64,000 nucleotides of DNA from Streptomyces ferrugineus (GTDB lineage: Bacteria; Actinomycetota; Actinomycetes; Streptomycetales; Streptomycetaceae). A program made the position numbers and the translations under genes. Shown here piece after piece: positions 2,510 through 49,104 of the stretch (its first letter is position 1; every line of letters begins with the position of its first letter). Location of the stretch: positions 1,984,001-2,048,000 of the forward strand of contig NZ_CP063373.1 of assembly GCF_015160855.1 (NCBI RefSeq). The letters run 5' to 3'. The notes under the pieces are model-generated. The model made no database searches and was not told the origin of the DNA. It was given only the letters and a program-made list of their open reading frames with translations.

Positions 2510-4693
2510 CTACGACTTCACCGCTTCCACCCGCACCGCGCACGCCTTGAACTCCGGCATCCGCGACGTCGGGTCCAGCGCCGGGTTGGTCAGGGTGTTC
2601 GCGCGGCCCTCGCCCGGCCAGTGGAACGGCATGAAGACGGTGTCCGGGCGGATGCCGGTCGTGATGCGGGCCGGCGCCACCGCCCGGCCCCGGCGCGAGA
2701 CCACGGCCACCGGGTCGCCCTCGGCCGCCCCGAGCCGGGCCGCGAGCCGTGGGTGCAGCTCGACGAACGGGCCCGGCGCGGCGGCGTTCAGCTCGTCGAC
2801 ACGGCGGGTCTGGGCGCCGGACTGGTACTGCGCCACGACCCGCCCCGTCGTCAGCAGGACCGGGTACTCGTCGTCGGGTTCCTCGGCGACCGCCCGGTGC
2901 GTGACGGGGGCGAACCTCGCGCGTCCGTCGGGCGTGGCGAACCGGTCGAGGAAGAGGCGGGGGGTGCCGGGGTGTACGGCGGTGGCGGTGGCCTCGTCGT
3001 CCTGCGCGGGGTCGTCGGCCCCCGCGGTCGCGTCCAGCGAGGCGTCCTCACAGTCCTCGGCGTCGTCCGGGGCGGCCACCCCGGGACACGGCCAGAACAC
3101 CCCGTTCTCCTCCGCCAGCCTCCGGTACGTGATCCCCGAGTAGTCGGCCGGCCCGCCCGCGCTCGCCCGCCGCAGCTCCTCGAAGACCTCCTCGGGGTCG
3201 GTCGGGAAGCTCTTCTCCAGGCCCTTCCCGCCGCCCAGCCGCGCCGCCAGCTCGTGCATGACCTCCAGGTCGCTGCGGACGCCCTCCGGCGGGGTGACCG
3301 CGCGGCGGCGCAGCAGCACCCGGCCCTCCAGGCTGGTCGTCGTGCCCGTCTCCTCCGCCCACTGGGTGACCGGCAGGACGACGTCCGCGAGGGCCGCCGT
3401 CTCCGACAGCACGACGTCGCACACGGCGAGGAAGTCGAGGGACTTGAACCGCTCCTCGATGTGCGCGGCACGCGGCGCCGACACCACCGGGTTGGAGCCC
3501 ATGAGCAGCAGTGACCTGATGTCCGTGCCCAGCGCGTCCAGCAGCTCGTACGCGCTGCGTCCCGGCCCGGGCAGGCTGTCCGGGTCCACGCCCCACACCT
3601 GGGCCACGTGCCGCCGCGCCGCCGGGTCGTCCAGCTTGCGGTAGCCGGGCAACTGGTCGGCCTTCTGGCCGTGTTCGCGCCCGCCCTGTCCGTTGCCCTG
3701 CCCGGTGAGGCAGCCGTAGCCGGACAGCGGCCGGCCCGCCCGTCCCGTCGCCAGGCACAGGTTGATCCACGCGCCCACGGTGTCCGTGCCCTTGGACTGC
3801 TGCTCGGGCCCGCGCGCGGTCAGCACCATCGCGTGCTCGGGCTCGCAGAACAGCCGTACGGCCTCGCGCAGTTGGGGCACGGACACCCCGGTGATCCGCT
3901 CCACGTACTCCGGCCAGTGCGCCATCGCGGCGGCCCGCGCGTCCTCCCAGCCGGCCGTGCGCTCCTGGATGTACTCCTCGTCCACCCGCCCCTCGGCGAC
4001 GACCAGGTGCAGCAGGCCCAGGGCGAGGGCCAGATCGGTCCCGGGCCGGGGCATCAGGTGCAGGTCCGCGTGCTCGGCGGTCCTGGTGCGGCGCGGGTCG
4101 ACGACGATGAGGGTGCCGCCGTTCTCCTTCAGTTCGTTGAAGAAGCGCAGCGACGGCGGCATCGTCTCCGCCGGGTTGGAGCCGACGAGGATGACACAGC
4201 CCGTCTTCGGGATGTCCTCCAGCGGGAACGGCAGTCCCCGGTCCAGGCCGAACGCCTTGATCCCGGCCGCGGCCGCCGACGACATGCAGAAGCGGCCGTT
4301 GTAGTCGATCTGCGAGGTGCCGAGCACGATCCGCGCGAACTTGCCGAGGCTGTACGCCTTCTCGTTCGTCAGACCGCCGCCGCCGAAGACCCCGCACGCG
4401 TCCGGGCCATGTTCCGTACGCGTGCGGCCGAGGCCCTCGGCGATCCGGTCCAGCGCCTCGTCCCAGGTGGCGGGCACGAGCGTGCCGCCCGACCGCACCA
4501 ACGGCGAGGTGAGGCGGACGCCCGACGCCAGCACCGCGGGAGCCGTACGGCCCTTGCCGCACAGCGCTCCCCGGTTCACCGGGAAGTCCGGGCGCTCGAC
4601 CACCGCGACACCCCCGTCCTGCGAGGGCGTGAGGTTCATTCCGCACTGCAGGGCGCAGTACGGGCAGTGCGTGGGCGTCACGGAGTTCGGCAT
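2510..4693 (-). CDS. Molybdopterin oxidoreductase, assimilatory nitrate reductase type
   Basis: A large catalytic subunit (727 residues) of the DMSO-reductase family, probably the cytoplasmic assimilatory nitrate reductase that reduces nitrate to nitrite. The N-terminal [4Fe-4S] ligands are visible as Cys10, Cys13, Cys17 and Cys45 (HCPYCALQC ... GALCGKG). A Cys at about residue 136 in NGRFCMSSA sits where NasA/NarB/NapA enzymes place the molybdenum ligand. The GSNPAETMPP and MGSNPVVSAP segments bind the bis-MGD cofactor, and the molydopterin dinucleotide-binding C-terminal domain is present. A C-terminal [2Fe-2S] (BFD-like) extension of some NasA proteins is absent. An acidic, low-complexity insertion of about 35 residues (near DDAEDCEDASLD) separates the last two domains. 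There is no twin-arginine signal, which favours the assimilatory role. No nitrite reductase or transporter is adjacent in the window. Confidence 0.88.
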   Translation of the reverse strand: MPNSVTPTHCPYCALQCGMNLTPSQDGGVAVVERPDFPVNRGALCGKGRTAPAVLASGVRLTSPLVRSGGTLVPATWDEALDRIAEGLGRTRTEHGPDACGVFGGGGLTNEKAYSLGKFARIVLGTSQIDYNGRFCMSSAAAAGIKAFGLDRGLPFPLEDIPKTGCVILVGSNPAETMPPSLRFFNELKENGGTLIVVDPRRTRTAEHADLHLMPRPGTDLALALGLLHLVVAEGRVDEEYIQERTAGWEDARAAAMAHWPEYVERITGVSVPQLREAVRLFCEPEHAMVLTARGPEQQSKGTDTVGAWINLCLATGRAGRPLSGYGCLTGQGNGQGGREHGQKADQLPGYRKLDDPAARRHVAQVWGVDPDSLPGPGRSAYELLDALGTDIRSLLLMGSNPVVSAPRAAHIEERFKSLDFLAVCDVVLSETAALADVVLPVTQWAEETGTTTSLEGRVLLRRRAVTPPEGVRSDLEVMHELAARLGGGKGLEKSFPTDPEEVFEELRRASAGGPADYSGITYRRLAEENGVFWPCPGVAAPDDAEDCEDASLDATAGADDPAQDDEATATAVHPGTPRLFLDRFATPDGRARFAPVTHRAVAEEPDDEYPVLLTTGRVVAQYQSGAQTRRVDELNAAAPGPFVELHPRLAARLGAAEGDPVAVVSRRGRAVAPARITTGIRPDTVFMPFHWPGEGRANTLTNPALDPTSRMPEFKACAVRVEAVKS

Positions 4694-4780
4694 ACCGTCC
4701 AGCGTGAGTCGGGCGTGTTACGTGCGCGGCGGCCCCCTGTTACGCGGCCGGGACGGTGACCTCCCCGTCGCCGCCCGGCC

Positions 4781-35982: not shown

Positions 35983-37017
35983 CTAGGTCACCGGATCCAG
36001 CTCCAGCGGCTCGACCCGGCCCTCCAGCATGGTGCCCAGGCCCTGGACGGCGCAGACGTCGGGGCGCTCGGCGATGTGGACCGGCATGCTGGTCGCCTGC
36101 CGCAGCATGTCGTCGAAACCGGGGAGCAGGGCGCTGCCGCCGACCATCATGATGCCGCGGTCGGCGAGGTCGGCCACCAGGTCGGGCGGGCAGTCGCGGA
36201 GCACCTTGCCGATGCTGTCCAGCACGGCGGTCAGCGGGGTCTGGATGGCGTCCCGTACGGCCGCGGTGTCGACGAGGACGGAGCGGGCCAGGCCGGTGCA
36301 GACGTCGCGGCCGTGGATCTCGGTGGCGGCCGGGCCGTGCGAGGTGAGCCCGTTGCCGGACAGGGCGAGCTGCAGCGGCCGTACGTTCTGGCTGGGCAGC
36401 ATCAGCTCGTGCTCGTGCCGCAGATGCTGCACGATCGCGTGGTCCACGGCCTCGCCGCCGACCCGGACGCGTTCGGCGGTGACGATGTTGCCGAGCGACA
36501 GCACCGCCACCTCCGTCGCGGCGGCCCCGCACACCATGATCATGCTGGCCTCGGGCTGCTCCACGGGCAGCCCGCAGCCCACGGCGGCGGCGATGAGGGT
36601 GTCGACGAGTTCGACCCGGCGGGATCCGAGACCGACCAGCGTCTCGATGGCAGCGCGCTGGGCGAGCGGGTCGGCGTTGTGCGGGGTGCAGACCGCGCCC
36701 CGCAGGAACGGCTTGCGGCGCAGGGCGCGGCGCATCTTGTCGCCGAGCAGGTGCCGCAGCATGCGCTGCGCCATCTCGATGTCGACCACGGTGCCGCCGG
36801 AGACGGGCCGTACGACACGGATGTAGTCCGGGGTGCGGCCGGTCATCTTCTCCGCCAACTCGCCGACCGCGATCAGGGCGCCGGTGCGGGTGTTCATGGC
36901 GGCGACGGAGGGCTGGTCGACGACGAGCCCCGTGCCCTTCACGTAGACGCGGGTCCTGGCCGCCCCCAGGTCGACGGCGAAGTGGCAGCGGCGAAGCTGC
37001 TCCAGAGTGGCGGGCAT
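35983..37017 (-). CDS. mbl: MreB-like actin-family protein
   Basis: 344 residues, the prokaryotic actin fold. Phosphate-1 motif FAVDLGAARTRVYVKG; connect-1 near LIAVGELAEKMTGR; the VDIEMAQRMLRHLLG and AVCTPHNADPLAQRAAIE regions as in MreB; phosphate-2 around MVCGAAATEVAVLSLGNIV; and the adenosine motif GIMMVGGSALLPGFDDML. Phosphate-1 is less canonical (DLGAART for DLGTANT) and the family's membrane-binding loop is weak, as in Streptomyces Mbl, which acts with MreB in spore-wall synthesis rather than rod elongation. The gene name rests on this resemblance and on memory of its place near matB. The ATG at 37017 follows GGAGGACCC. Confidence 0.82.
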   Translation of the reverse strand: MPATLEQLRRCHFAVDLGAARTRVYVKGTGLVVDQPSVAAMNTRTGALIAVGELAEKMTGRTPDYIRVVRPVSGGTVVDIEMAQRMLRHLLGDKMRRALRRKPFLRGAVCTPHNADPLAQRAAIETLVGLGSRRVELVDTLIAAAVGCGLPVEQPEASMIMVCGAAATEVAVLSLGNIVTAERVRVGGEAVDHAIVQHLRHEHELMLPSQNVRPLQLALSGNGLTSHGPAATEIHGRDVCTGLARSVLVDTAAVRDAIQTPLTAVLDSIGKVLRDCPPDLVADLADRGIMMVGGSALLPGFDDMLRQATSMPVHIAERPDVCAVQGLGTMLEGRVEPLELDPVT

Positions 37018-37234
37018 GGGGGGTCCTCCCGAAAGCGCAGACCATGGGTCCGCCGGGTGGGTGGCGGGCCTCGCGTTGGGCGTGTGGGTCGTGGGTGCGG
37101 GGCCGGCGCGTGGCGGCCTCTCCTTGGCAATCGTGCGGGCGGGCGGGAGCGCGTCGCCTTCTGGAGGGGGCCGGGTGGGGTGCGGCTGAATGGGGGGTTC
37201 TGGAACTGATGGGGTGTCAGGGGGCGTGTCGCGG

Positions 37235-40200
37235 TCACAGGGAGCGGGCGGCGTCGAGTAGAGGCTCCAGGGAGTCGACGATCAGGTCGCAGCCGGCCTT
37301 GCGCAGACGCCGCTCGGTGGTGGGGGAGTCGGCGTAGCCGATGACGGGGATGCCCCGGTGCCGGGCGGCGGTGACCTCGGCGGCTGTGGAGGAGATCAGC
37401 AGGAACTCGGCGGTGCGGCCGAAGTGGGTCAGGGCGAGGCGCAGGCGTTCCGGATCGGGCATCAGCCGCCTGAGGCGGCCGAAGACCGCCGACATCGGGA
37501 GTTCCCGGGAGACCAGGTGGTGGTGGACGGCCCGCGCGCAGAAGTCCGTGACGACGGCCAGGCGGCGACCGGAGTCGTGCAGCGTGCGTACGAGGTCGGA
37601 GGAGTGCGGGGTCGCGCGGGCTTTGGCCACGGCCCGCAGTTCCAGCAGGTCGAGGCGGTCGCGCAGGAGCGGGGCCAGGTCGCTGTTGTCGGCGAAGGCG
37701 CGCAGCACCTCCAGGGGGTGTACGAGTTCCTCCTGGAGCGGGATGGGGCCGCGGCTGTCACCCGTGAGGGGACGGCCCGTCAGCGCGTCCTGAGGGTCGC
37801 GGTGGTCGACAACCAGGGAGAGCAGCTCGAGGGCGGCGCTGCGGGCGGCCTTCGCGGTGAACGGACTGGTCAAGGGGCCCTCGAAGCCGAGCAGGACAAT
37901 CTCGGCGGTGCGCAGGAGGTCGGTGGTGGTGGCCGGTGAGGTCGGGGCGAACGGCTGCCGGGGCGCGGGGGCGGGCTGGGCCGGTTGTGTCTCACCCGCC
38001 AACTGGACCGAGCACGTGACCGACAACCCCGGCACCGGCCAACTGTGCAGCCTTTCGCGCACCGCCTGCTGGGCCGCACCCGCCCGGCGCAGCGGATAGC
38101 GGCGGGTGATGCGGCTCGCCTCCGTTGCGACATGCCTGAGAAGGACGTCGGCCACGTCCGTGACCTCCCCGCGCACGAAGGCGACCGGATCCTCGACGTG
38201 CCAGGCCAGCTCGGCCGTGGCGACGAAGGTGGCGCCGGCGGAGCCGGGGAGGGAGAGCACGGTGCCGGTCCGGTGCACCGTGAGGTCGACCTCGTAGTAC
38301 GTCGTCGGCCGCAGCGGACGCCGCCAGAGCGGGTGGGTCGCAGGCAGCACGGTCATCGGGCCGTCGTCCGGCACGAGTACGAAGGCCGTGCGGCCCGGGT
38401 CAGGGGTGAGCCGGCCGACGTTGGGGGTGACGAAAGGCCCCCGCACCAGGTCCCGGTCGCGCTCGTCCGCAGCCCGGCCGGGCAGGTGCAGGGCGCAGTA
38501 CCAGGCGAGGGGCGCGCTCGATTCTCCGCCGGTGCGCAACGGTTCGAAGCGGGCCAGGTCGAGGGTGGCGGTGCTGTCCGCGAACCGTTCGTACAGGGTG
38601 GGGGAGACGACGACCAGCACGTCCGCGTCGGGGGTGTCGAGGAGGGCACGCACAGCCGGCCGGGTGTGCTCGGCGAACGGCGCGTGCCAGAACGTCACCC
38701 GCAGCCGTGGCCGGTCCTCGATCTCCACGAGGGCCTCCGGCAGATCGCGCAGCAGCGAGACCAGCACGGGCAGGACATGGGCGTCCGGTTCGGTCCGTAC
38801 GACGTAGCCGTGGTCGCGGGCCAGCACCTCGTACTGGTGCGAGGCCAGATCCCCGCGGGCCAGCAGCTGGGTCACCACGCGGCCCAGGGCTTCCCGCTCG
38901 TCGGAGCCTGCTGCCTCGAAGGCGATCGTCGGCCGCTCCCGCTCGGGTGCCGAGCGCAGTTCGAGGTACAGCTCATGGAGGGCGGGGTCGACCGGGTCGC
39001 CGTGCCGCCGTTGCCGCAGCTCCGCGTAGGACTCGTACGACTCCATCGCTTCGGCGATCCGTCCCGTCCCCTTCAGCGCCAGGATGTGCAGCCGGCGGAG
39101 GTCCTCGCGGTCCGGATGTTCCCGGACGAGGGCGGTGAGATCGGTCGCGGCCTGCTCGAAGTCGCCCAGCTCCAGGTCGAGTTCGGCCCGCGTCACGCAG
39201 AGGGTGAGACGCAGGGCGCGCAGCCGGGCGCGGGTCGCCTTCGCGGCGGGGCCCGGAACGCCGTCCAGGGGGTCGCCGTAGTACAGGCTCAAGGCGTCTT
39301 GGAGCATGGAGCGCTCGGCATCCGTGGCCATGTCGAAGGTGCGTTCGTGGACCAACTCCTCGCAGTGGTGGATGTCGACGTAGTCGCCGGGTAGATGCAA
39401 CGCATACCCGTCGGAGAGCTCGGCGAGAGTGCCGGGGCCGAGGCACTGTCGTAGCTCCGTCGCCAGTTCGTGCAGTCGGCGCATGGTCTGGAGGTCCGAC
39501 GGAGGCTGCTCCCACAGGCTCTCGGCCAGCTCGGTGTGGGTGACGCGGCGGCCCTGTCTGAGCAGGAGCACGCAGAGCAGGGCCTGGGCCTCCGGGGACG
39601 GCAGGGTGAGGGCGCGGCCGCCGCGCCCGATGCTGGGCGGGCCGAGCAGGGTGATGTGCAGCCGGTCGGCCTCCGTCCCGCCCAGCGACCAGTCGAGGGC
39701 GGCCGAGCGCGGCAGCCGCCGTACGGCCTCGACCGGGTCGTCGCCGCGCGCCAGTTCCGCCAGGATCCGCTGGAACCGCAGGCTGGCCGGGCTGTGTGAG
39801 GCCAGTTCCCGCAGCAGCGACCTGAACATGAGGAAGTCCGACCTCTCGTCGTGCCCCTCCGACTGCTCCCCCAGCGCGAACCTGCTGAGCACCACCGAGC
39901 CGTTCGGCCGCAGCAGCAGACCGTCCCAGCCCTCCTGCCCGCGCACCAGACCGCGCGCGTGCAGCGCCTCCAGCGCGGGCACGACATCCGCCACCAGCTG
40001 GGCGTACACCCGGAAGGAGACCCCTGGCCCGCTGCCGAGCTGGAGTTCGGCCAGGGTGACGCCGTCCACGAACTCGGCGACCAGAAACGGCCGTTCGCCC
40101 TCCACCCCGTAGTCCAGCACCGGCACGACGTTCGGATGCCGCAGCCCGGCCAGCGCGAGCGCCTCCCGCGCGAACCGCTCCTGCGGCGCGTCCTGGCGCG

Positions 40201-41896
40201 GATACCGGTGGACCACCACGGGCCGGTCGGTCCGCACGTCGACGGCCGCCCACATCCGCTGACTGGGCCCCCGCAGCCCCAGCAACCGATACCGCCCCCC
40301 GACCAGCCCCTCCTCCGCCTCGCCGCCCAACCGCCGCACCGTCTCCGCGCGGACCGTCGCGAACGCCCGCCCCGCGTCGCGGCGCGCCTCCGCCCGGAAC
40401 TCGCCCGCCGCGAGCCCCGCCCGTTCGTCGATCAGCCCGCCCACCCGGGCCAGGAACTCCCGTGTCCGCGTCCGCGCCGTGCGCGGCAGCGACCGCAGCA
40501 GCAACTCCCGTACACCCGGCCGGAACTCGTAGGACCCCGGCGGTCCGGGAATCGCCGTCAGCAGGCCGCTGAGGATGATCTCGGCCAGGTGCTGGGGGCG
40601 CGGGCTGCAGTCCAGGGCGCGTTGGACCAGGCGCATCACCGGCAGCGAGGGTGTGGCCAGGGCGAGGTGGCCGGCGATGCGGAAGGCCTCCGGGGACGCG
40701 GTCGCCCGGAAGCGCAGCACCAGGTCCTCCGCCGCCAACTCGGCGATGTCGGGGGCCGGTTCGGCGGGCGGAACCGGGGTGCGCGGCAGCCGGGCCAGGG
40801 CGCCCGGCGCGTGTCCGCCGCCCGGCGCCGCGACCAGAGCGGCCCAGTTGGCGAGCCAGGCCGGGGCCGGCTCCAGGACGGGGAGCGGGACCGCGCCGGG
40901 GTGCGGCTCCGGTGCCGTGTCCTCGTACGGCACGAAGGTGAGCGCGGCCGACGGTGCCGCCGCCGTCGGTGCCGTGAGCAGGCCCGGGGCGGCGGGCAGG
41001 GCCGTGGTGTGCCAGAGGTGTTCGGGCAGCGGCTGGACGACGGCCACGGGCATACGGGACGCCCAGCGGCGCAGGGTGCGGTACCAGCGGTCGCCCGCCG
41101 GGCCGGGGTGCCACTGCGGGCCCATGCAGTCGCTGACGACGAGGGTGACCGTACGGCCGTCGGCGAGCGCGGGGACCTGGTGGGCGCGGCCGTCGGGGGT
41201 GGCGCGGTGCACGGTGACCGTGCGGAAGACGCCCGACTGGGCGAGCACGGTGTGCAGTTCACGCACCAGGGGGCGCCACACGGGCATCGTCGGGCCCGCG
41301 TCGTACACCAGGTTCAGCCGCAACCAGCGGTCCGGCGCCGGGCGCAGCACCGGGAGCCAGACGTCGGGACCGCCGCCGAGCCGGGCGATCCGGTCGGCGG
41401 TGGCGCGCTCGTCGAGGAGCCGGGCGCGGGTCGAGGGGACCTTGCGCTTGAGGGGGCGCAGGGCGCGCTGGAGGGCGAGCGGGTGGGGCAGCATCGGGGG
41501 CGCGGGGGCGAGCAGCGGGGGCGTGCCGGGCGAGCCGGGTGCGTCGGGTGTGTCGGGGAGGTGGAGGGGGATGCGGCCGTCGGGGGGTGGGGTGGGGGAC
41601 CGCTGGGGTGCCGGGGCCGGGGGAGTGGGGCGCGGGGGTGCGGCGGCGGGGCTCGGGTGGCGGGACTGGCGTGCGGGTGCCGCCGCTCGACCGGGGCCTT
41701 GGCTCTCCTCTCCTCCCGTGTCGCCCAACTGCTCGGCAAACCACAGGAGTTCGGCGAGCTCCCGGGGTGTGGGCCCGGCTTCCGCGGCCGCACCACCCCC
41801 ACCCGTCACGGCGGCGAGCACCGAGGCCAGCCGGGCGACGGCGGAATCCCCGCCCCCGGCGGTGCCCTCCGGCCGCCCGCGCCCCTCAGAATCCAT
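37235..41896 (-). CDS. SAV_2336-type protein: vWA-like, pseudokinase, SARP/BTAD and degenerate HAD fusion
   Basis: 1553 residues. Residues 1-140 are a Pro/Ala-rich tail. About 140-500 is the SAV_2336-type domain; inside it LNLVYDAGPTMPVWRP, FRTVTVHRA, VTLVVSDCMGPQWH and MPVAVVQPLPEHLW are arranged like a von Willebrand A fold with an altered MIDAS (DAGPT). About 533-735 is a protein-kinase fold that cannot be active: the ATP-anchoring Lys is His (VVVHRYP), the HRD loop reads VRGQEGWDGLLL and DFG is lost. 745-985 is a SARP-type winged helix (LHITLLGPPSIGRGGRALTL) plus BTAD. About 1330-1553 is HAD-like with a dead nucleophile site (VLLGFEGPL for DxDGT). 990-1320 is unassigned. The start overlaps the AAA gene by 11 bases. 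It is the regulatory or sensory partner of the ATPase and VMAP protein. Confidence 0.85.
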   Translation of the reverse strand: MDSEGRGRPEGTAGGGDSAVARLASVLAAVTGGGGAAAEAGPTPRELAELLWFAEQLGDTGGEESQGPGRAAAPARQSRHPSPAAAPPRPTPPAPAPQRSPTPPPDGRIPLHLPDTPDAPGSPGTPPLLAPAPPMLPHPLALQRALRPLKRKVPSTRARLLDERATADRIARLGGGPDVWLPVLRPAPDRWLRLNLVYDAGPTMPVWRPLVRELHTVLAQSGVFRTVTVHRATPDGRAHQVPALADGRTVTLVVSDCMGPQWHPGPAGDRWYRTLRRWASRMPVAVVQPLPEHLWHTTALPAAPGLLTAPTAAAPSAALTFVPYEDTAPEPHPGAVPLPVLEPAPAWLANWAALVAAPGGGHAPGALARLPRTPVPPAEPAPDIAELAAEDLVLRFRATASPEAFRIAGHLALATPSLPVMRLVQRALDCSPRPQHLAEIILSGLLTAIPGPPGSYEFRPGVRELLLRSLPRTARTRTREFLARVGGLIDERAGLAAGEFRAEARRDAGRAFATVRAETVRRLGGEAEEGLVGGRYRLLGLRGPSQRMWAAVDVRTDRPVVVHRYPRQDAPQERFAREALALAGLRHPNVVPVLDYGVEGERPFLVAEFVDGVTLAELQLGSGPGVSFRVYAQLVADVVPALEALHARGLVRGQEGWDGLLLRPNGSVVLSRFALGEQSEGHDERSDFLMFRSLLRELASHSPASLRFQRILAELARGDDPVEAVRRLPRSAALDWSLGGTEADRLHITLLGPPSIGRGGRALTLPSPEAQALLCVLLLRQGRRVTHTELAESLWEQPPSDLQTMRRLHELATELRQCLGPGTLAELSDGYALHLPGDYVDIHHCEELVHERTFDMATDAERSMLQDALSLYYGDPLDGVPGPAAKATRARLRALRLTLCVTRAELDLELGDFEQAATDLTALVREHPDREDLRRLHILALKGTGRIAEAMESYESYAELRQRRHGDPVDPALHELYLELRSAPERERPTIAFEAAGSDEREALGRVVTQLLARGDLASHQYEVLARDHGYVVRTEPDAHVLPVLVSLLRDLPEALVEIEDRPRLRVTFWHAPFAEHTRPAVRALLDTPDADVLVVVSPTLYERFADSTATLDLARFEPLRTGGESSAPLAWYCALHLPGRAADERDRDLVRGPFVTPNVGRLTPDPGRTAFVLVPDDGPMTVLPATHPLWRRPLRPTTYYEVDLTVHRTGTVLSLPGSAGATFVATAELAWHVEDPVAFVRGEVTDVADVLLRHVATEASRITRRYPLRRAGAAQQAVRERLHSWPVPGLSVTCSVQLAGETQPAQPAPAPRQPFAPTSPATTTDLLRTAEIVLLGFEGPLTSPFTAKAARSAALELLSLVVDHRDPQDALTGRPLTGDSRGPIPLQEELVHPLEVLRAFADNSDLAPLLRDRLDLLELRAVAKARATPHSSDLVRTLHDSGRRLAVVTDFCARAVHHHLVSRELPMSAVFGRLRRLMPDPERLRLALTHFGRTAEFLLISSTAAEVTAARHRGIPVIGYADSPTTERRLRKAGCDLIVDSLEPLLDAARSL

Positions 41897-42902
41897 CGCC
41901 GTCGGCCGCCGCGCTCAGATACGGCATCAGCTGCTCGGCCAGCTTCTCGCGGGAGTCGGCTTCGAGGCCGGCGACGCCGCTGAGGTAGATGGCGTTGAGG
42001 AGCTGGTCCGTGGCCAGTTCGCCGGTGCCGGCGCGGGACAGGAACTCGGTGATCAGGGCCTGTGCCCGGGCGTCGGGCTCGCCCAGGTGGGCGCGGACGA
42101 TGTCGGTGAGCTGGGTGCGGTCGGGGCGGCGCAGGCGCAGCCGCACACAGCGGCGCAGAAAGGCGGGCGGGAACTCACGTTCGCCGTTGCTGGTCAGGAC
42201 GACGAAGGGGAAGGCACGGCAGCGGACCCGGCCCCGTGAGATCGTCACCGGGGCGTCCGTGCCGTCGGCCGGCACCCGGGCCGTGCCGTCGGGGGAGTGA
42301 CGGGCCGCGCGGACCAGTTCGGGAATCTCGTACTGGCCCTCCTCCAGGATGTTCAGCAGGTCGTTGGGCAGGTCCAGATCGCTCTTGTCGATCTCGTCGA
42401 CCAGGAGGGCGCGCGGGTGCTCGTACGGCAGGAGGGCCGTGCCCAGCGGGCCCAGACGCAGATGGTCCTCGACGCCGTCATGGAGGGAGCCGTGGCCGTC
42501 GTCCCCGCGTGCCGCGTACAGGCGGGACAGCGGGTCGTACTGGTAGAGGCCGTCGGCGAGGGTGCTGCGGCTGGTGATGTTCCAGCGCAGCACCGGACCC
42601 AGGCGCAGCTCGCGGGCCACGGCGTAGGCGAGGGACGACTTGCCCGTGCCGGGCGGGCCGGTGACCAGCAGCGGGCGGCGCAGACACAGCGCGGCGTTGA
42701 CCAGCTGGACGCTCTCCGGGGTCGGCACATAGGTCCTCGCCCGGTGCACGCGGTCCGGGGAGAGCGCCGCCGCGTCGTCGCCGTCGCCGGGCGACGACAG
42801 CGCGGGGCCGCCGTCGAACGCGCGCCAGGGCGGCGGGGCGGGCAGCCCGGCGATGCCGTCGTGCGGCTCGCCGGTGCCGGAGTAGACGGACCAGTGCGGC
42901 AT
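41886..42902 (-). CDS. MoxR-type AAA+ ATPase of the VMAP system
   Basis: 338 residues. Walker A is GPPGTGKSS (82-89), Walker B LLVDEID (166-172), sensor 1 the Asn of FVVLTSNGEREFPPAF, and the arginine finger region FLRRCVRLRLRRPD. The insert PYEHPRALLVDEIDKSD, NDLLNILEEGQYEIPEL matches MoxR/YifB-like ATPases that remodel partners together with vWA proteins. An N-terminal 55 residues (MPHWSVYSGTGEPHD ...) are specific to this type. It lies 23 bases after the VMAP gene and overlaps the next gene by 11 bases, so the three are one unit. It should supply the NTP-driven step of the system. Confidence 0.92.
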   Translation of the reverse strand: MPHWSVYSGTGEPHDGIAGLPAPPPWRAFDGGPALSSPGDGDDAAALSPDRVHRARTYVPTPESVQLVNAALCLRRPLLVTGPPGTGKSSLAYAVARELRLGPVLRWNITSRSTLADGLYQYDPLSRLYAARGDDGHGSLHDGVEDHLRLGPLGTALLPYEHPRALLVDEIDKSDLDLPNDLLNILEEGQYEIPELVRAARHSPDGTARVPADGTDAPVTISRGRVRCRAFPFVVLTSNGEREFPPAFLRRCVRLRLRRPDRTQLTDIVRAHLGEPDARAQALITEFLSRAGTGELATDQLLNAIYLSGVAGLEADSREKLAEQLMPYLSAAADGDGF

Positions 42903-42925
42903 GGTGCTCCCAACGGGGCGACGGG

Positions 42926-44773
42926 TCAGGCGACGGGTGACCGGGTGTGTACGGCCGTGGCGTGCGGGTCGGTGAAGCGGCGGGGGTCGTCCCACAGGAG
43001 CTGGATGTCGCGCGCCCAGTGGTCGTCCTCCGCTTCGGCGAGCTGGCGCAGACCGAGGACCTGGCGCGGCAGCCGGGCGGGCGGCACGCCGGAGGCGACA
43101 CCGTCGAGGGCGTCCAGGAAGGCCGTACCGGGGCAGTCGGCGGTGCCCGGGCAGTCGGCCCGGTCCGGGCCGCAGCCCCTGCGGGACCACACCAGCACCG
43201 GGGCCGGTGCGGTCAGCGAGGTCTCGAAGTGCGGGCGGGTGCGGGCCGAGCGGGGCGTCGCGGCGAACCCCGCCAGGCCGGCCTCGGACTGCACCAGCGC
43301 CAGCCGGAGCTTTCTGGGGTCCTGGGTGCCGCCGCAGGCGACGCGATGGACGCGGACCCCGGTGCGGGAGTCCAGGCGCTGCCAGGCCCTGGTGAGGACG
43401 TGCTGGGTGCTGGTCCTGCGGCGGGCGTGGTCGGTGACCACGACCGGGTGGACGCAGCCGAGGGGAGTGTCGTCGTCGGGGCCCTTCTCCCAGCGGTCGA
43501 CCGGCCAGTCCAGCCAGTCCCGGGGCAGCACGAAGGCGATCAACTCGTCGGCGCCGGGCGTCAGACGGCAGAAGGCGTCCTCGATGCGGTCCTGGACATA
43601 GGTCTTCAGCCGAGCCCTGGGAACCGTCTCCGCCGCGACCGGACGCCGGCGCTCCCCGCTGTACGCCGACACCTCGACCCGCACCAGGTCGTCACCGGCG
43701 CCGCTGTGCCCCAACTCGACGAGGATGGCGCCGGTCCCGGCTGTGGGCGGGGCGGTGAGCAGGGCGTCGAGCTCGTCCGCGAACCGGGTCACGGTGGCCG
43801 GGTCGTCCACGTCGCACAGCACGAACCACGCCGCGGACCACAACGATCCGAAGCCCTCGACCGGCGGCTCCGGGTCGAACGGCCCCGCCGCGGCGGTGTA
43901 GAGCTGGACGGGATCGCAGTCGAGCCCGGCCCGTGCGGCCTTCTCGACCAGCGCGCGCAGCCGGGCGCCGTCGGACGAGAGCTGTGGTGCCGGGGCCGGG
44001 GCGGCGGCGGTGAAGCGGCGGGCCGCCGAGTCAGGGACGGCGGTGAAGCGGCCGGCCGCCGGGTCCGGGACCGGCAGGCCGCGCCGGTGCGCGCGGTCCA
44101 GGGCCGGCGCCCCGCCGACGTACCCGCCTCCCGCACGAGCCGTCCCCCGCCGCCACCCACCGTCCGGCACCAGGGCGCTGAGGCCGGGCCAGTAGCGTGC
44201 CAGTACATGCGTGGGCATCATGCGGCCGGCCCGCACACCGCGGGCGCCGGCCGCCGCCGTGACCATGCCGATGACCTGGCCGGTGTCGACCAGGGCGACC
44301 GCGGCGCCGCTGAAGCCGACCGCCAGCGGCTGGCCGTGCCCGCTCCAGGCCTCCAGCTGGATCCACTCCCCGCCGATCAGCAGCTCGGTCACGGTACGGA
44401 ACTCGGCGATCGTGCCGTCGGCGTCGTACCCGGCCGGGAAGCCGTAGGCCATGAGCTTGCGGTCGGCGTGCGCGACGTCGGCCGGGGCGAGCGGCGCGGG
44501 GGCGATCGCCGGCTCGCGGTCCAGTTCCAGTACGGCGAGGTCGCCCAGCTCGCACATACGGCCGTCCCAGCCGCCGTGCGCCACGACCCGCGCGGCCACG
44601 GGAGCCTCCCCGGGGCGCTGCGGGAAGGTCACCGTCACCGGGTCCGATTCGGCGTTCTCGACGACATGCGCGCAGGTCAACACCTTGCCGCGGGCCACGA
44701 GGAAGCCCGCGCCGGACACCCTGCCGCCGCACTCGATCCGGGCGTGCCACTCGGCACCCCTCAGGCCTGTCAT
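42926..44773 (-). CDS. VMAP protein with trypsin-like protease domain
   Basis: 615 residues. N-terminal chymotrypsin/trypsin-fold protease with an intact triad: His36 (VLTCAHVVE), Asp78 (LGDLAVLEL), Ser155 (VGFSGAAVA), plus GAGFLVARGK. A low-complexity linker (about 215-260) with a duplicated DPAAGRFTA/DSAARRFTA leads to a helical middle, then a C-terminal domain with ARLKTYVQDRIEDAFCRL, LIAFVLPRDWLDWPVDRW and GCVHPVVVTDHARRRT, which I recognise as the VMAP (vWA-MoxR-associated protein) C-terminal module. Proteins of this architecture are predicted effectors of ternary NTP-dependent conflict systems: the protease would be let loose when the ATPase and vWA partners sense a trigger. No signal peptide, so it acts inside the cell. 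First gene of the operon; the 93 bases upstream must hold the promoter, but none is evident. Confidence 0.85.
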   Translation of the reverse strand: MTGLRGAEWHARIECGGRVSGAGFLVARGKVLTCAHVVENAESDPVTVTFPQRPGEAPVAARVVAHGGWDGRMCELGDLAVLELDREPAIAPAPLAPADVAHADRKLMAYGFPAGYDADGTIAEFRTVTELLIGGEWIQLEAWSGHGQPLAVGFSGAAVALVDTGQVIGMVTAAAGARGVRAGRMMPTHVLARYWPGLSALVPDGGWRRGTARAGGGYVGGAPALDRAHRRGLPVPDPAAGRFTAVPDSAARRFTAAAPAPAPQLSSDGARLRALVEKAARAGLDCDPVQLYTAAAGPFDPEPPVEGFGSLWSAAWFVLCDVDDPATVTRFADELDALLTAPPTAGTGAILVELGHSGAGDDLVRVEVSAYSGERRRPVAAETVPRARLKTYVQDRIEDAFCRLTPGADELIAFVLPRDWLDWPVDRWEKGPDDDTPLGCVHPVVVTDHARRRTSTQHVLTRAWQRLDSRTGVRVHRVACGGTQDPRKLRLALVQSEAGLAGFAATPRSARTRPHFETSLTAPAPVLVWSRRGCGPDRADCPGTADCPGTAFLDALDGVASGVPPARLPRQVLGLRQLAEAEDDHWARDIQLLWDDPRRFTDPHATAVHTRSPVA

Positions 44774-44866
44774 GACGCCCCCGTCACCGTCGTCCTTCGC
44801 GCATGTCCATGGTGCAGGACGGCCGTTGGCGTTGTCCCGGTTTCCCCTCCGTCCCTTTCCGTACCG

Positions 44867-46210
44867 TCAGACGACCCCCCGCACCACCCCCAGCTCCACC
44901 AGGTCCTGCGGCCTGATGCGGAGCTGATCCGCCGTGGCCTCCACCTCCCGCGGCCCCCGCTTCAGGATCGCCGCCGCCAGCTCGGGCGCGATCACCGAGA
45001 AGTAGCTGTCCGGCGTGGCCCAGGTGCTGCCGGGTGCCGCGAGCGCCAGGGCGCCGCCCGAGCCGCCCTCGCCGATCAGCAGGGTCGTGATCGGCGTGTG
45101 CGCGGACGCCACCGCCCCGAACAGGTCCGCGATGGCCGCGCCCACGCCCTGCCGCTCCGCCTCCGCGTCATTGGCGGCACCCGGGGTGTCCACCAGCGTC
45201 AGCACCGGGATGCCGAGCCGGTCCGCGAGGCGGATCAGGCGGGCGGCGGTGCGGTAGCCGGCCGGCCGGGTGGCGGTGCCGGTCTGCGCGGCGAAGGCGA
45301 CCGTACGGCCGTCGTGCTCGCCGAATCCGCACAGCATGCCGTCCGGGTCGGTGCCGCCGCAGCGGTCGCCGCTGATCGTGACGCGGTCGGTGAAGTAGGC
45401 GTCCAGGTAGCGCTCGGCGCGCGGCCGCCGGGGCGACCGGGCGCGCCGGACCGCGTCCCAGCCGGTGGCGGGCACGTCGGTGCCGCCGAGGGGGCGCGGC
45501 AGCGGAGCGGCTTCGGCCGTGGGCGCCGTCAGCAGCCGTAGCCACCGTCCCAGCTCCCGGCGCAACTCCCCCGGCCGCACCACCGCGTCCACCGCCCCCG
45601 CCGCCACCTGCGCCTCCGCCCGGTACGCCGCCGGGTCCGCGTCCGGCGGGCGGACCCGGGAGCCCGCGAAGCCGACCTGGGCGCCGGGGAGGGCGAGGAC
45701 GACGTCGGCGCCCGCGCCGAGGGTGGCCCAGCCGCCGCCCGTCGTCGGGTCCCGGAGCACGGCGATCTGGGGCAGGCCCGCCTCGCGGGTGAGCGCGGAC
45801 TGCCGTGCCACGCGCTGCAGCTGGGTGAGGGCGAGCATGCCCTCCTGCATACGGCTGCCGCCCGTTGCCACCAGCGGGACGACGGGCAGACGGCGGGCGC
45901 GGGCGTGGGCGTAAGCCGCCTGAAGACGGTCCCCGGTGCGCTGCCCCAGCGAGCCGCCCAGGAAGCCGAACTCGAAGGCGATCAGGACCGCGCGCGTGCC
46001 CTCGACGGTGCCGGTGCCGCAGACCACCGACTCCTCCTCGCCGGTGCGTTCGGCGGCGCGGGCGCGGGAGGCGTCGTAGCCCTGCCAGGCGAGCGGCCCG
46101 TCGGGCCCGGACCGCCCGTCCGACTCCCTTTCCGGGTGGGGGAGTTCGGTGAAGGTGGAGCCGTCGGTCAGCAGGGCGACGACCTGCCGTGCCGCGAGCC
46201 GTTCCGTCAT
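44867..46210 (-). CDS. Fused acyl-CoA carboxyltransferase (beta-alpha) protein
   Basis: 447 residues joining two crotonase-like halves. The N-terminal half resembles AccD (beta): GTGTVEGTRAVLIAFEFGFLGGSLG and ATGGSRMQEGMLALTQL with the oxyanion-hole glycines, but without the AccD zinc ribbon. The C-terminal half resembles AccA (alpha): GVPVLTLVDTPGA-type segment (GIPVLTLVDTPGAAND), AIADLFGAVASAHTPITTLLIGEGGSGGALAL and SYFSVIAPELAAAIL. It would transfer CO2 from carboxybiotin to an acyl-CoA, but no biotin carrier or carboxylase is adjacent. The ATG overlaps the matB stop by four bases, linking it to malonyl-CoA metabolism; acetyl-CoA carboxylase or, given the mat context, a malonate-related reaction are both possible. 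Confidence 0.85.
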   Translation of the reverse strand: MTERLAARQVVALLTDGSTFTELPHPERESDGRSGPDGPLAWQGYDASRARAAERTGEEESVVCGTGTVEGTRAVLIAFEFGFLGGSLGQRTGDRLQAAYAHARARRLPVVPLVATGGSRMQEGMLALTQLQRVARQSALTREAGLPQIAVLRDPTTGGGWATLGAGADVVLALPGAQVGFAGSRVRPPDADPAAYRAEAQVAAGAVDAVVRPGELRRELGRWLRLLTAPTAEAAPLPRPLGGTDVPATGWDAVRRARSPRRPRAERYLDAYFTDRVTISGDRCGGTDPDGMLCGFGEHDGRTVAFAAQTGTATRPAGYRTAARLIRLADRLGIPVLTLVDTPGAANDAEAERQGVGAAIADLFGAVASAHTPITTLLIGEGGSGGALALAAPGSTWATPDSYFSVIAPELAAAILKRGPREVEATADQLRIRPQDLVELGVVRGVV

Positions 46211-47649
46211 GAGGCCAGCGCCCGCTTCATGATCTTGCCCATGTCGTTGCGGGGGAGCGCGTCCAGGTAGCGCACCCTGCGCGGGCGCTTGTGCGGGGCC
46301 AGCCGGGCGGCGACATGGTCGGCCAACTCCGCGGCCGAGGGCGGGGATTGGGGGTCGGCCGGGACCACCCACGCCACGATCCGCTCACCCAGGTCGGCGT
46401 CCGGCTCCCCGGTGACCGCCGCCTCGCGCACTCCGGGATGTTCGAGGAGCGCGTTCTCGATCTCGCCCGCCCCGATCTTGTAACCCCCGCTCTTGATCAG
46501 GTCGGTGGCCTTGCGGCCGACGATACGGACGTACCCGTCGCCCTCCCGCACGGCCATGTCGCCCGTGCGGAACCAGCCGTCATCCGTGAACGCCGCCGCC
46601 GTGGCGTCGGGGCGGTTGAGGTACTCGGTGAACAGGTTCGGGCCGCGCACCTGGATCTCGCCCACCGTCTCGCCGTCGTACGACGTGATCGGCGCCCCGT
46701 CCTCCTCCACCAGCCGCAGCTCCACGCCCGGCAGCGGCACCCCGACCGTCCCCGCCCGCGCCTCGCCGTCCGCGCGGACGCTGGTGTTCATCAGCGTCTC
46801 CGTCATGCCGTAGCGCTCGATGACCCGCTGACCGGTCGCGGCCGTGATCCGCTCGTGGTCGTGCACCGGGAGCGCCGCCGAGCCCGAGACCAGGAGGCGG
46901 GCCTTGCCGAGGGCCTGCGCCAGTCCCGGGTCCTCGGGCAGGGCCTGGGCGACGCGGTGGTACATCGTCGGCACGCCGAACATCATGGTCGCGCCCTCGT
47001 TCAGCTCGCGCGCGACGCCGTCCGTGCCGAACCTGCCGAGATGGCGCACCGCGCCGCCGCGGCGCAGCGGGCCGAGGATGCCGAGGACCAGTCCGTGTAC
47101 ATGGAACAGGGGCAGGCCGTGAACGAGGACGTCCTCGCCGGTCCACCGCCAGGCGTCGGCGAGCGCGTCCAGGGTGTGGGCGACGGCCCGGCGCGAGATC
47201 ACGGCGCCCTTGGGCGGGCCGGTGGTGCCGGAGGTGTAGACGACCAGCGCGGGGTCCTCGTCCGAGGCCTGCGGGTCGGGGAGCGGGCCGGCGCCGTGCA
47301 CGTCGACGTCGATGCGGGTCAGGGTGCCCAGGGCGGCGGGCAGTTCGTCGCCCGGGGCGGCCAGCACCGCCGACGGCGCGCTGTCGGACAGGATGTGCCC
47401 GAGCTCCTTCTCCCCGGACTTCGGGTTGAGCGGCACGGCGGCGACACCGGCCTGAAGCGCCGCCACCACCGCCACGGCGGTCTCCAGCGCCGGGGTCGCC
47501 CAGACGGCCACCCTGCCGGCCCCGCCGATCCGCGCCGCGAGGGCACCGGCGGCGGCGCCGAGCTCGCCGTACGTCAGGGAGCGGTCGCCGAACCGCAGGG
47601 CGGGCCGGTCGGCCGGAGCACCCGTGAGGGCCGGGAAGAGAGAGGACAC
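46207..47649 (-). CDS. matB: Malonyl-CoA synthetase
   Basis: 480 residues of the acyl-adenylate-forming superfamily; MatB joins malonate (or methylmalonate) to CoA with ATP. Core A3 motif VVYTSGTTGPPKGAVISRR; A5 VIERYGMTETLMNTSVRADGE; A7 DGWFRTGDMAVREGDGYVRIVGR; A10 Lys in RNDMGKIMKRAL. The PLNPKSGEKELGHILSDS region and AALPVHDHERITAATGQ match the S. coelicolor MatB as I remember it, including length (about 485). It makes malonyl-CoA for fatty acid and polyketide synthesis. Gene order matC-matB-carboxyltransferase, 66 bases after matC. Confidence 0.9.
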   Translation of the reverse strand: MSSLFPALTGAPADRPALRFGDRSLTYGELGAAAGALAARIGGAGRVAVWATPALETAVAVVAALQAGVAAVPLNPKSGEKELGHILSDSAPSAVLAAPGDELPAALGTLTRIDVDVHGAGPLPDPQASDEDPALVVYTSGTTGPPKGAVISRRAVAHTLDALADAWRWTGEDVLVHGLPLFHVHGLVLGILGPLRRGGAVRHLGRFGTDGVARELNEGATMMFGVPTMYHRVAQALPEDPGLAQALGKARLLVSGSAALPVHDHERITAATGQRVIERYGMTETLMNTSVRADGEARAGTVGVPLPGVELRLVEEDGAPITSYDGETVGEIQVRGPNLFTEYLNRPDATAAAFTDDGWFRTGDMAVREGDGYVRIVGRKATDLIKSGGYKIGAGEIENALLEHPGVREAAVTGEPDADLGERIVAWVVPADPQSPPSAAELADHVAARLAPHKRPRRVRYLDALPRNDMGKIMKRALAS

Positions 47650-47715
47650 GCGTCGTACTCCTTAACGGTTCTTGACTGTTCGTCGGACACTGGCGGTCGT
47701 GGTCCGTCGGCCTGC

Positions 47716-49104
47716 CTACCCCCAGCCCGGCACGACCATCACCAGCCACACCACCGCGGGCACCGCCGCCACCACGATCCCTCCGTACACCATGAGCTGC
47801 CGGAAGAAACGCTCACGGTCCACGTCCGGTGCCGCGGCCAGCACCAGCGCGCCGTTCGTCGAGAAGGGGCTCACGTCCACCACGGTCGCCGACACCGCGA
47901 GCGCCGCCACCATGCCGACCGCCCCGATCTCGCCCTGTGCCAGGAACGGCACGGCGAGCGGGATCAGCGCGCCCATGATGCCGACGGACGAGGCGAACGC
48001 CGAGACGATCGCGCCGATGTAGCAGAGCAGTACGGCGGCCAGCAGCGGTACGCCGATGTCGCTGACGCCCTCGCCGGCCCAGGTGATGGTGCCCATCTCG
48101 TCCAGTACGCCGACGTACGTCAGCACACCGCAGATCAGCAGCACGGTCGGCCAGGCGATCTCGCCGACCGCCTTGCGGCTGTCGTCCGGCCAGGCGGTGC
48201 TCAGGACGACGGCCAGGGTGATCGCGGTCAGACCGGCGTCCAGATCGAAGCCGAGGACGGCGACGACGAGGGCGACGAGAGAGATGAGGGTCGCGATTCG
48301 GGGTGGGGTGAGGTGGGTGGTGGTGGGTGTGGTCGCGGTGGGGGCGGGGCGGGTGACGGTGGTGCCGGGCTCGCGGGGGTTGGCGCCGGGGCCGGATCCG
48401 CCACCAGCTCCGGATCCGCCACCAGCACCGGATCCACCACCAGCTCCGGATCCGGATCCGGAGGTGGCTCCGCCCCCCGTCGTCTCCACCGCCCCCTGCG
48501 CCCACAGCTTCAGCCCGCCGAACAGGACGAACACAACGCCCGCGATGACGAGGTTGACGACGAGGGACGCCAGGAACAGGGTGACCTCGTCGCCCGGCAG
48601 CTTCTCGCGCTCGACGATGCCGTTGACGATCGAGCCGTAGATGCTGATCGGCGAGAAGCCGCCGCCCTGCGCGCCGTGCACGACCATGGCGCCCATCAGC
48701 AGCGGGCTGATGTGGTACCGCGCGGCGAAGCTCAGCGCGATCGGCGCGACGATCGCCACGGCGGCAGGGCTCACGGCCCCGATCGCGGTGAGCGCGCCGG
48801 TGATGGCGAACATCACCCACGGGATGAGCGCCACCCGCCCCCGGACGAGCCGGATGGAGGCGTGCACCAGCCAGTCGGTGGTGCCGTTGGCCCGGGCGAT
48901 GGCGAAGAGGTACGTGACGCCGACGAGGACGACGAACAGATCGCCGGGGAAGCCGGCGAAGATGCCGTCCGCGTCGAGGTCGGCGACGAGGGTGCCGACT
49001 CCGAAGGCGGCGGCGAAGGCGAGCGCGCCCATGTTGATGGAGCGGGTGGTCGCGATGACGAACACCACGACGAGGACGAGGATCGAGATGAGTTCGGGGG
49101 ACAT
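47716..49104 (-). CDS. matC: MatC-type malonate/dicarboxylate carrier
   Basis: 462 residues, about 11 membrane segments, with the MatC N-terminal signature: VVFVIATTRSINMGALAFAAAFGVGTLVADL and GDLFVVLVGVTYLFAIARANGTTDWLV. The second half carries SSVGIMGALIPLAVPFL and VVDVSPFSTNGALVLAA. Between helices 6 and 7, a hydrophilic loop of about 70 residues begins with a Gly/Ser repeat (about 208-230), encoded by three 18-base units plus two half units. It imports malonate for MatB. Divergent from the GntR regulator and very probably its target, since the two operator-like palindromes lie just upstream. Confidence 0.88.
   Translation of the reverse strand: MSPELISILVLVVVFVIATTRSINMGALAFAAAFGVGTLVADLDADGIFAGFPGDLFVVLVGVTYLFAIARANGTTDWLVHASIRLVRGRVALIPWVMFAITGALTAIGAVSPAAVAIVAPIALSFAARYHISPLLMGAMVVHGAQGGGFSPISIYGSIVNGIVEREKLPGDEVTLFLASLVVNLVIAGVVFVLFGGLKLWAQGAVETTGGGATSGSGSGAGGGSGAGGGSGAGGGSGPGANPREPGTTVTRPAPTATTPTTTHLTPPRIATLISLVALVVAVLGFDLDAGLTAITLAVVLSTAWPDDSRKAVGEIAWPTVLLICGVLTYVGVLDEMGTITWAGEGVSDIGVPLLAAVLLCYIGAIVSAFASSVGIMGALIPLAVPFLAQGEIGAVGMVAALAVSATVVDVSPFSTNGALVLAAAPDVDRERFFRQLMVYGGIVVAAVPAVVWLVMVVPGWG
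48393..48458. repeat. 18-bp tandem repeats inside matC
   Basis: Three near-identical 18-base units (48393, 48411, 48429; GGATCCGCCACCAGCTCC with one or two changes) followed by two GGATCC half units. They encode a Gly/Ser-rich loop (SGAGGG per unit). The period is a multiple of three, so copy-number change keeps the reading frame. Confidence 0.85.

Follow-up and report, generated by a model that had tools for sequence, protein, structure and literature searches.

The DNA analysed here (the window) is a stretch of 64,000 nucleotides of Streptomyces ferrugineus, corresponding to positions 1,984,001-2,048,000 of a single-contig 9.96-Mb genome (NZ_CP063373.1). Between positions 37235 and 44773 it carries three packed genes in the order VMAP, MoxR, vWA component, all located on the minus strand, as are the other window features mentioned below. 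The first gene (42926..44773) encodes a protein of 615 aa composed of a trypsin-like protease, a middle region and a VMAP-C module. After a gap of 23 nt follows a MoxR-type AAA+ ATPase of 338 aa (41886..42902), and the start of the third gene (37235..41896) overlaps the MoxR stop by 11 nt; its product, a SAV_2336-type protein of 1553 aa (NF041121, E 7.3e-133), consists of a vWA part followed by a variable arm. This operon is, with near certainty, a VMAP ternary conflict system and a fresh example of the class described by Kaur 2020 (PMC7159879). In the accessible text of that paper, such systems are recognised by their gene order, the VMAP-C domain, the N-terminal motifs of MoxR, a vWA domain and a variable arm, and their invader-triggered, nucleoside triphosphate-dependent immune action is a prediction. 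Among the papers listed by our literature searches there was no experimental report of VMAP immune action, and a search for SAV_2336 found no paper.

The class features seen at the locus are the strict gene order, VMAP-C, the MoxR motifs, a vWA domain with two aspartates and a variable, partly inactive arm. A sequence-only reading of the window had proposed both the three packed genes and their assignment to the vWA-MoxR-VMAP ternary systems, and both proposals proved right. Further points in common with the systems of Kaur 2020 are the N-terminal trypsin on the VMAP protein, arm modules of the kinase-winged helix-turn-helix (wHTH) and Band7-HAD types, and the presence of several paralogous systems per genome. 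The locus differs from them in some respects. Trypco1 or Trypco2 neighbours, which the same text gives as frequent with trypsin but not obligatory, are absent at the locus (~2.02 Mb), the Trypco1 genes of this genome lying at 8.35 and 8.99 Mb and the Trypco2 genes at 3.74 and 9.46 Mb. The middle region of the VMAP protein gave no Pfam match to VMAP-M0 at E up to 1; Kaur 2020 reports VMAP-M0 in 75% of VMAP middle regions, besides 28 other types. The arm seems to merge the two recurrent architectures, kinase-wHTH and cyclase-Band7-HAD, and it contains a SARP/BTAD module, neither term occurring in the main text of the paper. The earlier suggestion that extra signalling modules make the system a distinct variant is weak, because both types of arm are recurrent in Kaur 2020, where most kinases are disrupted; the arm falls inside the range already described for the class. 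What the sequence-only reading missed is the dead state of the arm kinase and HAD.

For comparison we used 80 loci, all from Streptomyces, taken as the top-scoring hits of the window MoxR among the matches listed and not a random sample; 66 of them have the vWA part. The ATPase matches AAA_5 in Pfam, and its N-terminal WSVYSG and PPWRAF correspond to the class motifs WxhapG and PsWRxa as defined in Kaur 2020. The tested motif residues are kept in 80/80 loci, and W4 in all 78 that cover it. By sequence, the ATPase motifs of MoxR are intact. A match to the NCBIfam MadB ATPase (E 5.5e-20) reached 71.7 bits, far under the cut-off of 475.

In the large protein, the match to the SAV_2336 N-terminal domain spans residues 43-493 (E 7.3e-133). 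The vWA domain proper covers approximately residues 190-360 (40817..41329) and contains the aspartates D199 and D256 of the metal ion-dependent adhesion site (MIDAS), in line with the two aspartates that Kaur 2020 reports for most vWA domains of the class. The vWA fold that had been predicted for this part was borne out by structure comparison, in which rows 1-16 are all vWA domains. The N-terminal extension carries a conserved E46xxE49xxW52, whose spacing is unlike that of the printed [D/E]xxx[D/E]xxxa motif. Searches of the PDB with profiles built from the VMAP and vWA alignments gave nothing at E up to 1.

Residues 512-525 (40322..40363), placed between vWA part and arm, form a conserved junction peptide, FATVRAETVRRLGG; it is an island of the form (F/I)ATVSEETVRRLGG inside an otherwise poorly conserved linker. 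A first, stricter pattern matched 48/67 proteins; a relaxed pattern, set after viewing the misses, matched 58/67 compared with 10/13,200 shuffled regions, and the remaining nine proteins show visible variants. The peptide ends in RRLGG and is kept upstream of either the kinase or the tail; being present whichever comes next, it marks the point where the modules differ. It may be a site of cleavage, docking or MIDAS binding, and it could overlap the C-terminal extension with conserved S, E and R described in Kaur 2020. Like separase cleavage sites, it contains ExxR.

The arm begins with a pseudokinase (~residues 530-690, 39827..40309), detected as a weak Pkinase match below cut-off. With kinase and HAD positions assigned to known motifs by hand, the catalytic Asp is lost in 55/56 relatives, the Lys in 54 of the 55 that cover it and the DFG Asp in all 50 that cover it. 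At the other end of the arm, residues 1326-1553 (37238..37921) gave profile matches to HAD proteins with Gly at the position of the nucleophile Asp; this Asp is lost in 60/60 aligned relatives (Gly in 58, Ser or Ala in the other two).

The kinase is followed by a module similar to AfsR, a Streptomyces antibiotic regulatory protein (SARP), comprising a winged helix and a BTAD domain (residues 739-985, 38942..39682; BTAD E 5e-23, AfsR 8hvr E 9e-35). According to the accessible text of PMC10936776, T88 and R92 of AfsR read bases, and R87, K95 and Q48 contact the backbone. At T88, R92, R87, K95 and Q48, numbered by hand from the alignment, the window module has Glu, Glu, His, Gln and Glu, respectively. 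For this module, 20 of 51 relatives have Glu at the R92 position and 16 have Arg. The clear similarity to AfsR would suit a scheme in which the trypsin releases a SARP activator that switches on antibiotic genes, but Glu at T88 and R92, Gln at K95 and His at R87 speak against it, as does the lack of such a module in 9/66 relatives. We consider this scheme highly improbable and dropped it on account of the replaced DNA-contact residues. AfsR and PknB-like kinases represent the parent folds of look-alike modules in the arm, from which the window modules differ by replacement of catalytic or base-reading residues. By sequence, each arm module of the window that can be recognised as kinase, SARP or HAD has lost such residues.

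Two further modules are less clear. Residues 986-1190 (38327..38941) form a fast-evolving module that might be a nucleotide-cyclase remnant, a label based on our own reading and the architecture in Kaur 2020. It was not confirmed: the module has no Pfam hit, hhalign against PF00211 proteins gave a probability of 0.0, and comparison with a cyclase-like protein of the same genome gave 7.8%, that protein itself having no Pfam hit and a weak match to a PDB cyclase (E 0.0056). Residues 1191-1310 (37967..38326) are Band-7-like by hhalign comparison with eight Band_7 proteins of the same genome (probability 53.5% with E 1.9e-5, or 83.1% with E 8.9e-6 under other settings, each E being that of a single comparison), and the two other tail modules scored 0.1%. 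There was no Pfam Band_7 hit to this module.

The arm varies between relatives in composition and in rate. A module was scored as absent from a relative when the window module had no tblastn match there at E 1e-5. Of the 66 loci that have the vWA part, 30 match the window in every module, and in nine the kinase and SARP match is absent and the tail is kept. The list of protein lengths omitted L015 (reads N), L019 (arm matches beyond its own stop) and proteins cut by contig ends. One relative of the vWA component, P0032 from Streptomyces chartreusis, carries a trypsin domain as well, according to precomputed Pfam annotation. We calculated the ratio of nonsynonymous to synonymous substitution rates (dN/dS) between the window and four close relatives (four pairs). 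It was 0.13-0.18 for mbl, 0.15-0.29 for MoxR and 0.20-0.33 for the vWA core; VMAP-C gave 0.27-0.43 and the trypsin 0.24-0.52. In the arm, values were 0.22-0.50 for the kinase, 0.34-0.49 for the SARP module and 0.31-0.47 for the Band-7-like module, the fastest segments being residues 986-1190 (0.66-0.76) and HAD (0.37-0.90). These last two modules stand out, whereas the ranges of trypsin and kinase overlap.

The trypsin-like domain (residues 1-185, 44219..44773; Trypsin_2 E 3.6e-14) has the whole catalytic triad that the sequence-only reading had noted, H36, D78 and S155, and the triad is kept across aligned relatives (H in 79/79, D in 79/79, S in 78/78). The residue six positions before the Ser, which we take from chymotrypsin numbering to be the one to compare, is Pro in 70/78 relatives and Asp in 0/78. 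A putative role of this domain as suicide effector is plausible.

VMAP-C (residues 346-597, 42983..43738) was also confirmed by its profile (PF20028, E 3e-40, 139 bits for a cut-off of 27). In the accessible text of Kaur 2020 it could not be related to any known domain. Its predicted structure has a caspase-like fold in structure comparison, aligning over 202-228 residues with CHAT proteases, such as Csx29/TPR-CHAT of Craspase, and with separase, and the aligned range covers the dyad-bearing part of these proteases. VMAP-C differs from them in two respects. A His-Cys dyad is not conserved in 43 VMAP-C sequences (the top His columns attain 19, 19 and 20, and Cys stays below 40% in every column), and significant similarity at the profile level is lacking. 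No Pfam CHAT match was found at E up to 1. In hhalign, VMAP-C against CHAT (30 loci fetched, 24 usable translations, 20 used) scored 23.0 with a probability of 2.9%, which is not significant; none of 30 column shuffles came above 16.6, and of five unrelated profiles four stayed at 11.2-16.0, with the fifth, the HAD module, scoring higher (24.6). A phylum-wide sample contained too few matches for a wider VMAP-C alignment (3/119 genomes, one of them under cut-off). The alignments A1, A2 and A3 hold 54, 48 and 48 sequences, including the window, drawn from 73, 76 and 55 references. We found no later report tying VMAP-C to CHAT or separase in a search that left most subscription papers and bioRxiv preprints outside.

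We give about even chances to a reading in which the arm acts as sensor or decoy and the trypsin as killer of this predicted conflict system. The pseudokinase, the SARP look-alike, the Band-7-like part and the dead HAD would be integrated baits, open to binding or modification by an invader protein that targets the genuine regulators of the host. The vWA MIDAS and the MoxR ring would keep the complex guarded and set its threshold. Bait binding would lead to ATP-driven remodelling, relayed to VMAP-C as a pseudo-CHAT or pseudo-separase scaffold, and this relay would free the trypsin, in the operon the one enzyme recognised as a seemingly intact effector. The freed trypsin would kill the compartment, or arrest it, before the invader could spread across the mycelium. 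That the arm senses and the trypsin acts is a direction we infer; intact trypsin and MoxR set against a dead kinase and HAD favour it without deciding the matter. Also in its favour are the fast evolution of parts of the arm, the nine loci that keep the tail with no kinase and SARP match, the accessory distribution of the operon and the resemblance of VMAP-C to proteases that include the invader-activated TPR-CHAT. The accessible text of Dore 2024 (PMC10907252) likewise proposes the vWA arm as sensor and the VMAP protease as effector, in ternary systems of Thiohalocapsa whose arms are diversified by diversity-generating retroelements, unlike the diversity seen here, which takes the form of module presence or absence and fast divergence.

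Kaur 2020 proposes the reverse direction, with the arm as effector, which weighs against our reading. In this published model, VMAP is the sensor of the invader, MoxR acts on the vWA protein by remodelling it, and the trypsin cuts this protein at the linker; the freed dead modules then act dominant-negatively on kinases, phosphatases and regulators needed by the invader. An RRLGG-ending junction peptide before kinase or tail is what a cleavage or docking site would be expected to look like, and dead enzymes can serve as dominant-negative effectors too. Against this model, variability is highest in parts of the arm, as it tends to be in sensors; trypsin and MoxR are the two enzymes recognised as apparently intact; and the residue six before the trypsin Ser is Asp in none of the 78 relatives. 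We regard the reverse flow as possible, though rather doubtful. Several other observations count against the arm as sensor and the trypsin as killer. Classical cutting after Arg or Lys is unsupported, because of the prevalence of Pro six residues before the Ser. The SARP module, dead in the window, is perhaps not dead everywhere, since 16 of the 51 relatives keep Arg at the R92 position. Residues 986-1190 and the Band-7-like module are not or only weakly identified, and the CHAT link of VMAP-C has no significant profile support. All segments have dN/dS below 1; the trypsin value is also raised in two of the four pairs (0.51 and 0.52), and that of the kinase is not raised in two (0.22 and 0.23).

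Downstream of the operon lies the mbl gene (35983..37017, MreB_Mbl E 6.8e-110), an MreB-like actin gene that serves as a flanking landmark and is not claimed as part of the system. Upstream, positions 44867-49104 hold genes for a carboxyltransferase, an acyl-CoA synthetase (MatB-like by our reading) and a MatC-type carrier, likely a malonate-use cluster. We surveyed 121 Streptomyces genomes, of which 119 have mbl and 101 have some VMAP-C. A core distribution in Streptomyces, which would have spoken against the sequence-only reading, was not seen: a MoxR of at least 74% identity occurs in 18/121 genomes, the others reaching at most 60% except for one partial match of 77% (G080), in a locus that runs to the contig end and adjoins an acyl-CoA synthetase gene. 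In 17 of these 18 genomes, including that of the window, the MoxR orthologue is located 3.4-5.5 kb from mbl; in G052 it is found elsewhere. Such a position might point to a developmental or envelope-stress regulator linked to mbl and spore-wall synthesis instead of immunity. This is unlikely, as mbl is present in 119/121 genomes versus 18/121 for the MoxR orthologue, the system of G052 lies elsewhere, and mbl stands by the carboxyltransferase gene without the operon at 7 of 18 fetched sites. We therefore dropped a housekeeping role linked to mbl, the operon being accessory and mbl core; the fixed position near mbl follows from shared ancestry of the site.

We hand-picked the 18 mbl sites without the system, mostly from the nearest mbl relatives. 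The seven empty ones have a carboxyltransferase match 185-414 nt from mbl; at nine others the spacing is wider or a carboxyltransferase was not recognised, and L090, cut by the contig end, is among these. At L087, a match to the HAD end (4309-4746, 69% identity) is the sole recognised operon part between mbl and carboxyltransferase and is likely a loss scar; L097 has two weak HAD matches at the mbl site. The operon is thus accessory, at one site. Because of the remnants, loss must have occurred in at least one lineage, the empty sites having either lost the operon or never been filled. At L088, a second partial mbl match (3142-4538, 96% identity, opposite strand) adjoins mbl, possibly an assembly artefact or a local inversion.

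Three loci of the S. ferrugineus genome, the window locus included, have VMAP-C and the SAV_2336 domain. The locus at 8.99 Mb encodes a VMAP-C protein (trypsin-like by eye), a MoxR of 50% identity and a vWA protein, with Trypco1 nearby. At 3.73 Mb (L107, 3724000-3742000), a gene for an EAD2-VMAP-M0-VMAP-C protein adjoins a vWA-FxSxx-TPR gene, and among the neighbours are genes for a separate EAD2-trypsin, for Trypco2 and for a protein resembling peptide beta-hydroxylases. Nothing in these 18 kb matched the window MoxR above 60 bits, and L107 is apparently a VMAP system without its own ATPase. In the window, a scan of 36900-45200 for promoters and terminators found none. PADLOC matches were set aside as family-level only, reflecting a shared kinase in the case of PD-T4-6 (E 1.6e-18) and a shared trypsin in that of LmuA (E 7.6e-9).

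The class itself is already known, and what is new here is the pseudo-separase reading of VMAP-C together with the series of loci. Tentatively, VMAP-C, the domain that defines the VMAP class, may be a dead CHAT/separase-like scaffold that restrains the trypsin and reads the state of MoxR and vWA, with the arm as a swappable decoy tray and the junction peptide gripped; VMAP systems as a whole would then be gated by a pseudo-separase. The dead kinase, SARP and HAD modules would then be interchangeable decoys, and (F/I)ATVSEETVRRLGG, with its ExxR, would be held by the pseudo-separase or by the vWA MIDAS. TPR-CHAT, a protease that VMAP-C resembles, is activated by an invader signal, and separase is the protease that separates chromosomes in human cells. 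VMAP systems are common in Streptomyces, as the 101 sampled genomes with VMAP-C indicate, and close relatives in which the locus is missing, reduced to a scrap or fitted with different arm modules form a natural series for testing sensor against effector. The pseudo-separase fold, if true, would suggest a testable way in which the trypsin is held back and would link VMAP systems with caspase-type pathways of cell death, from bacteria to animals.

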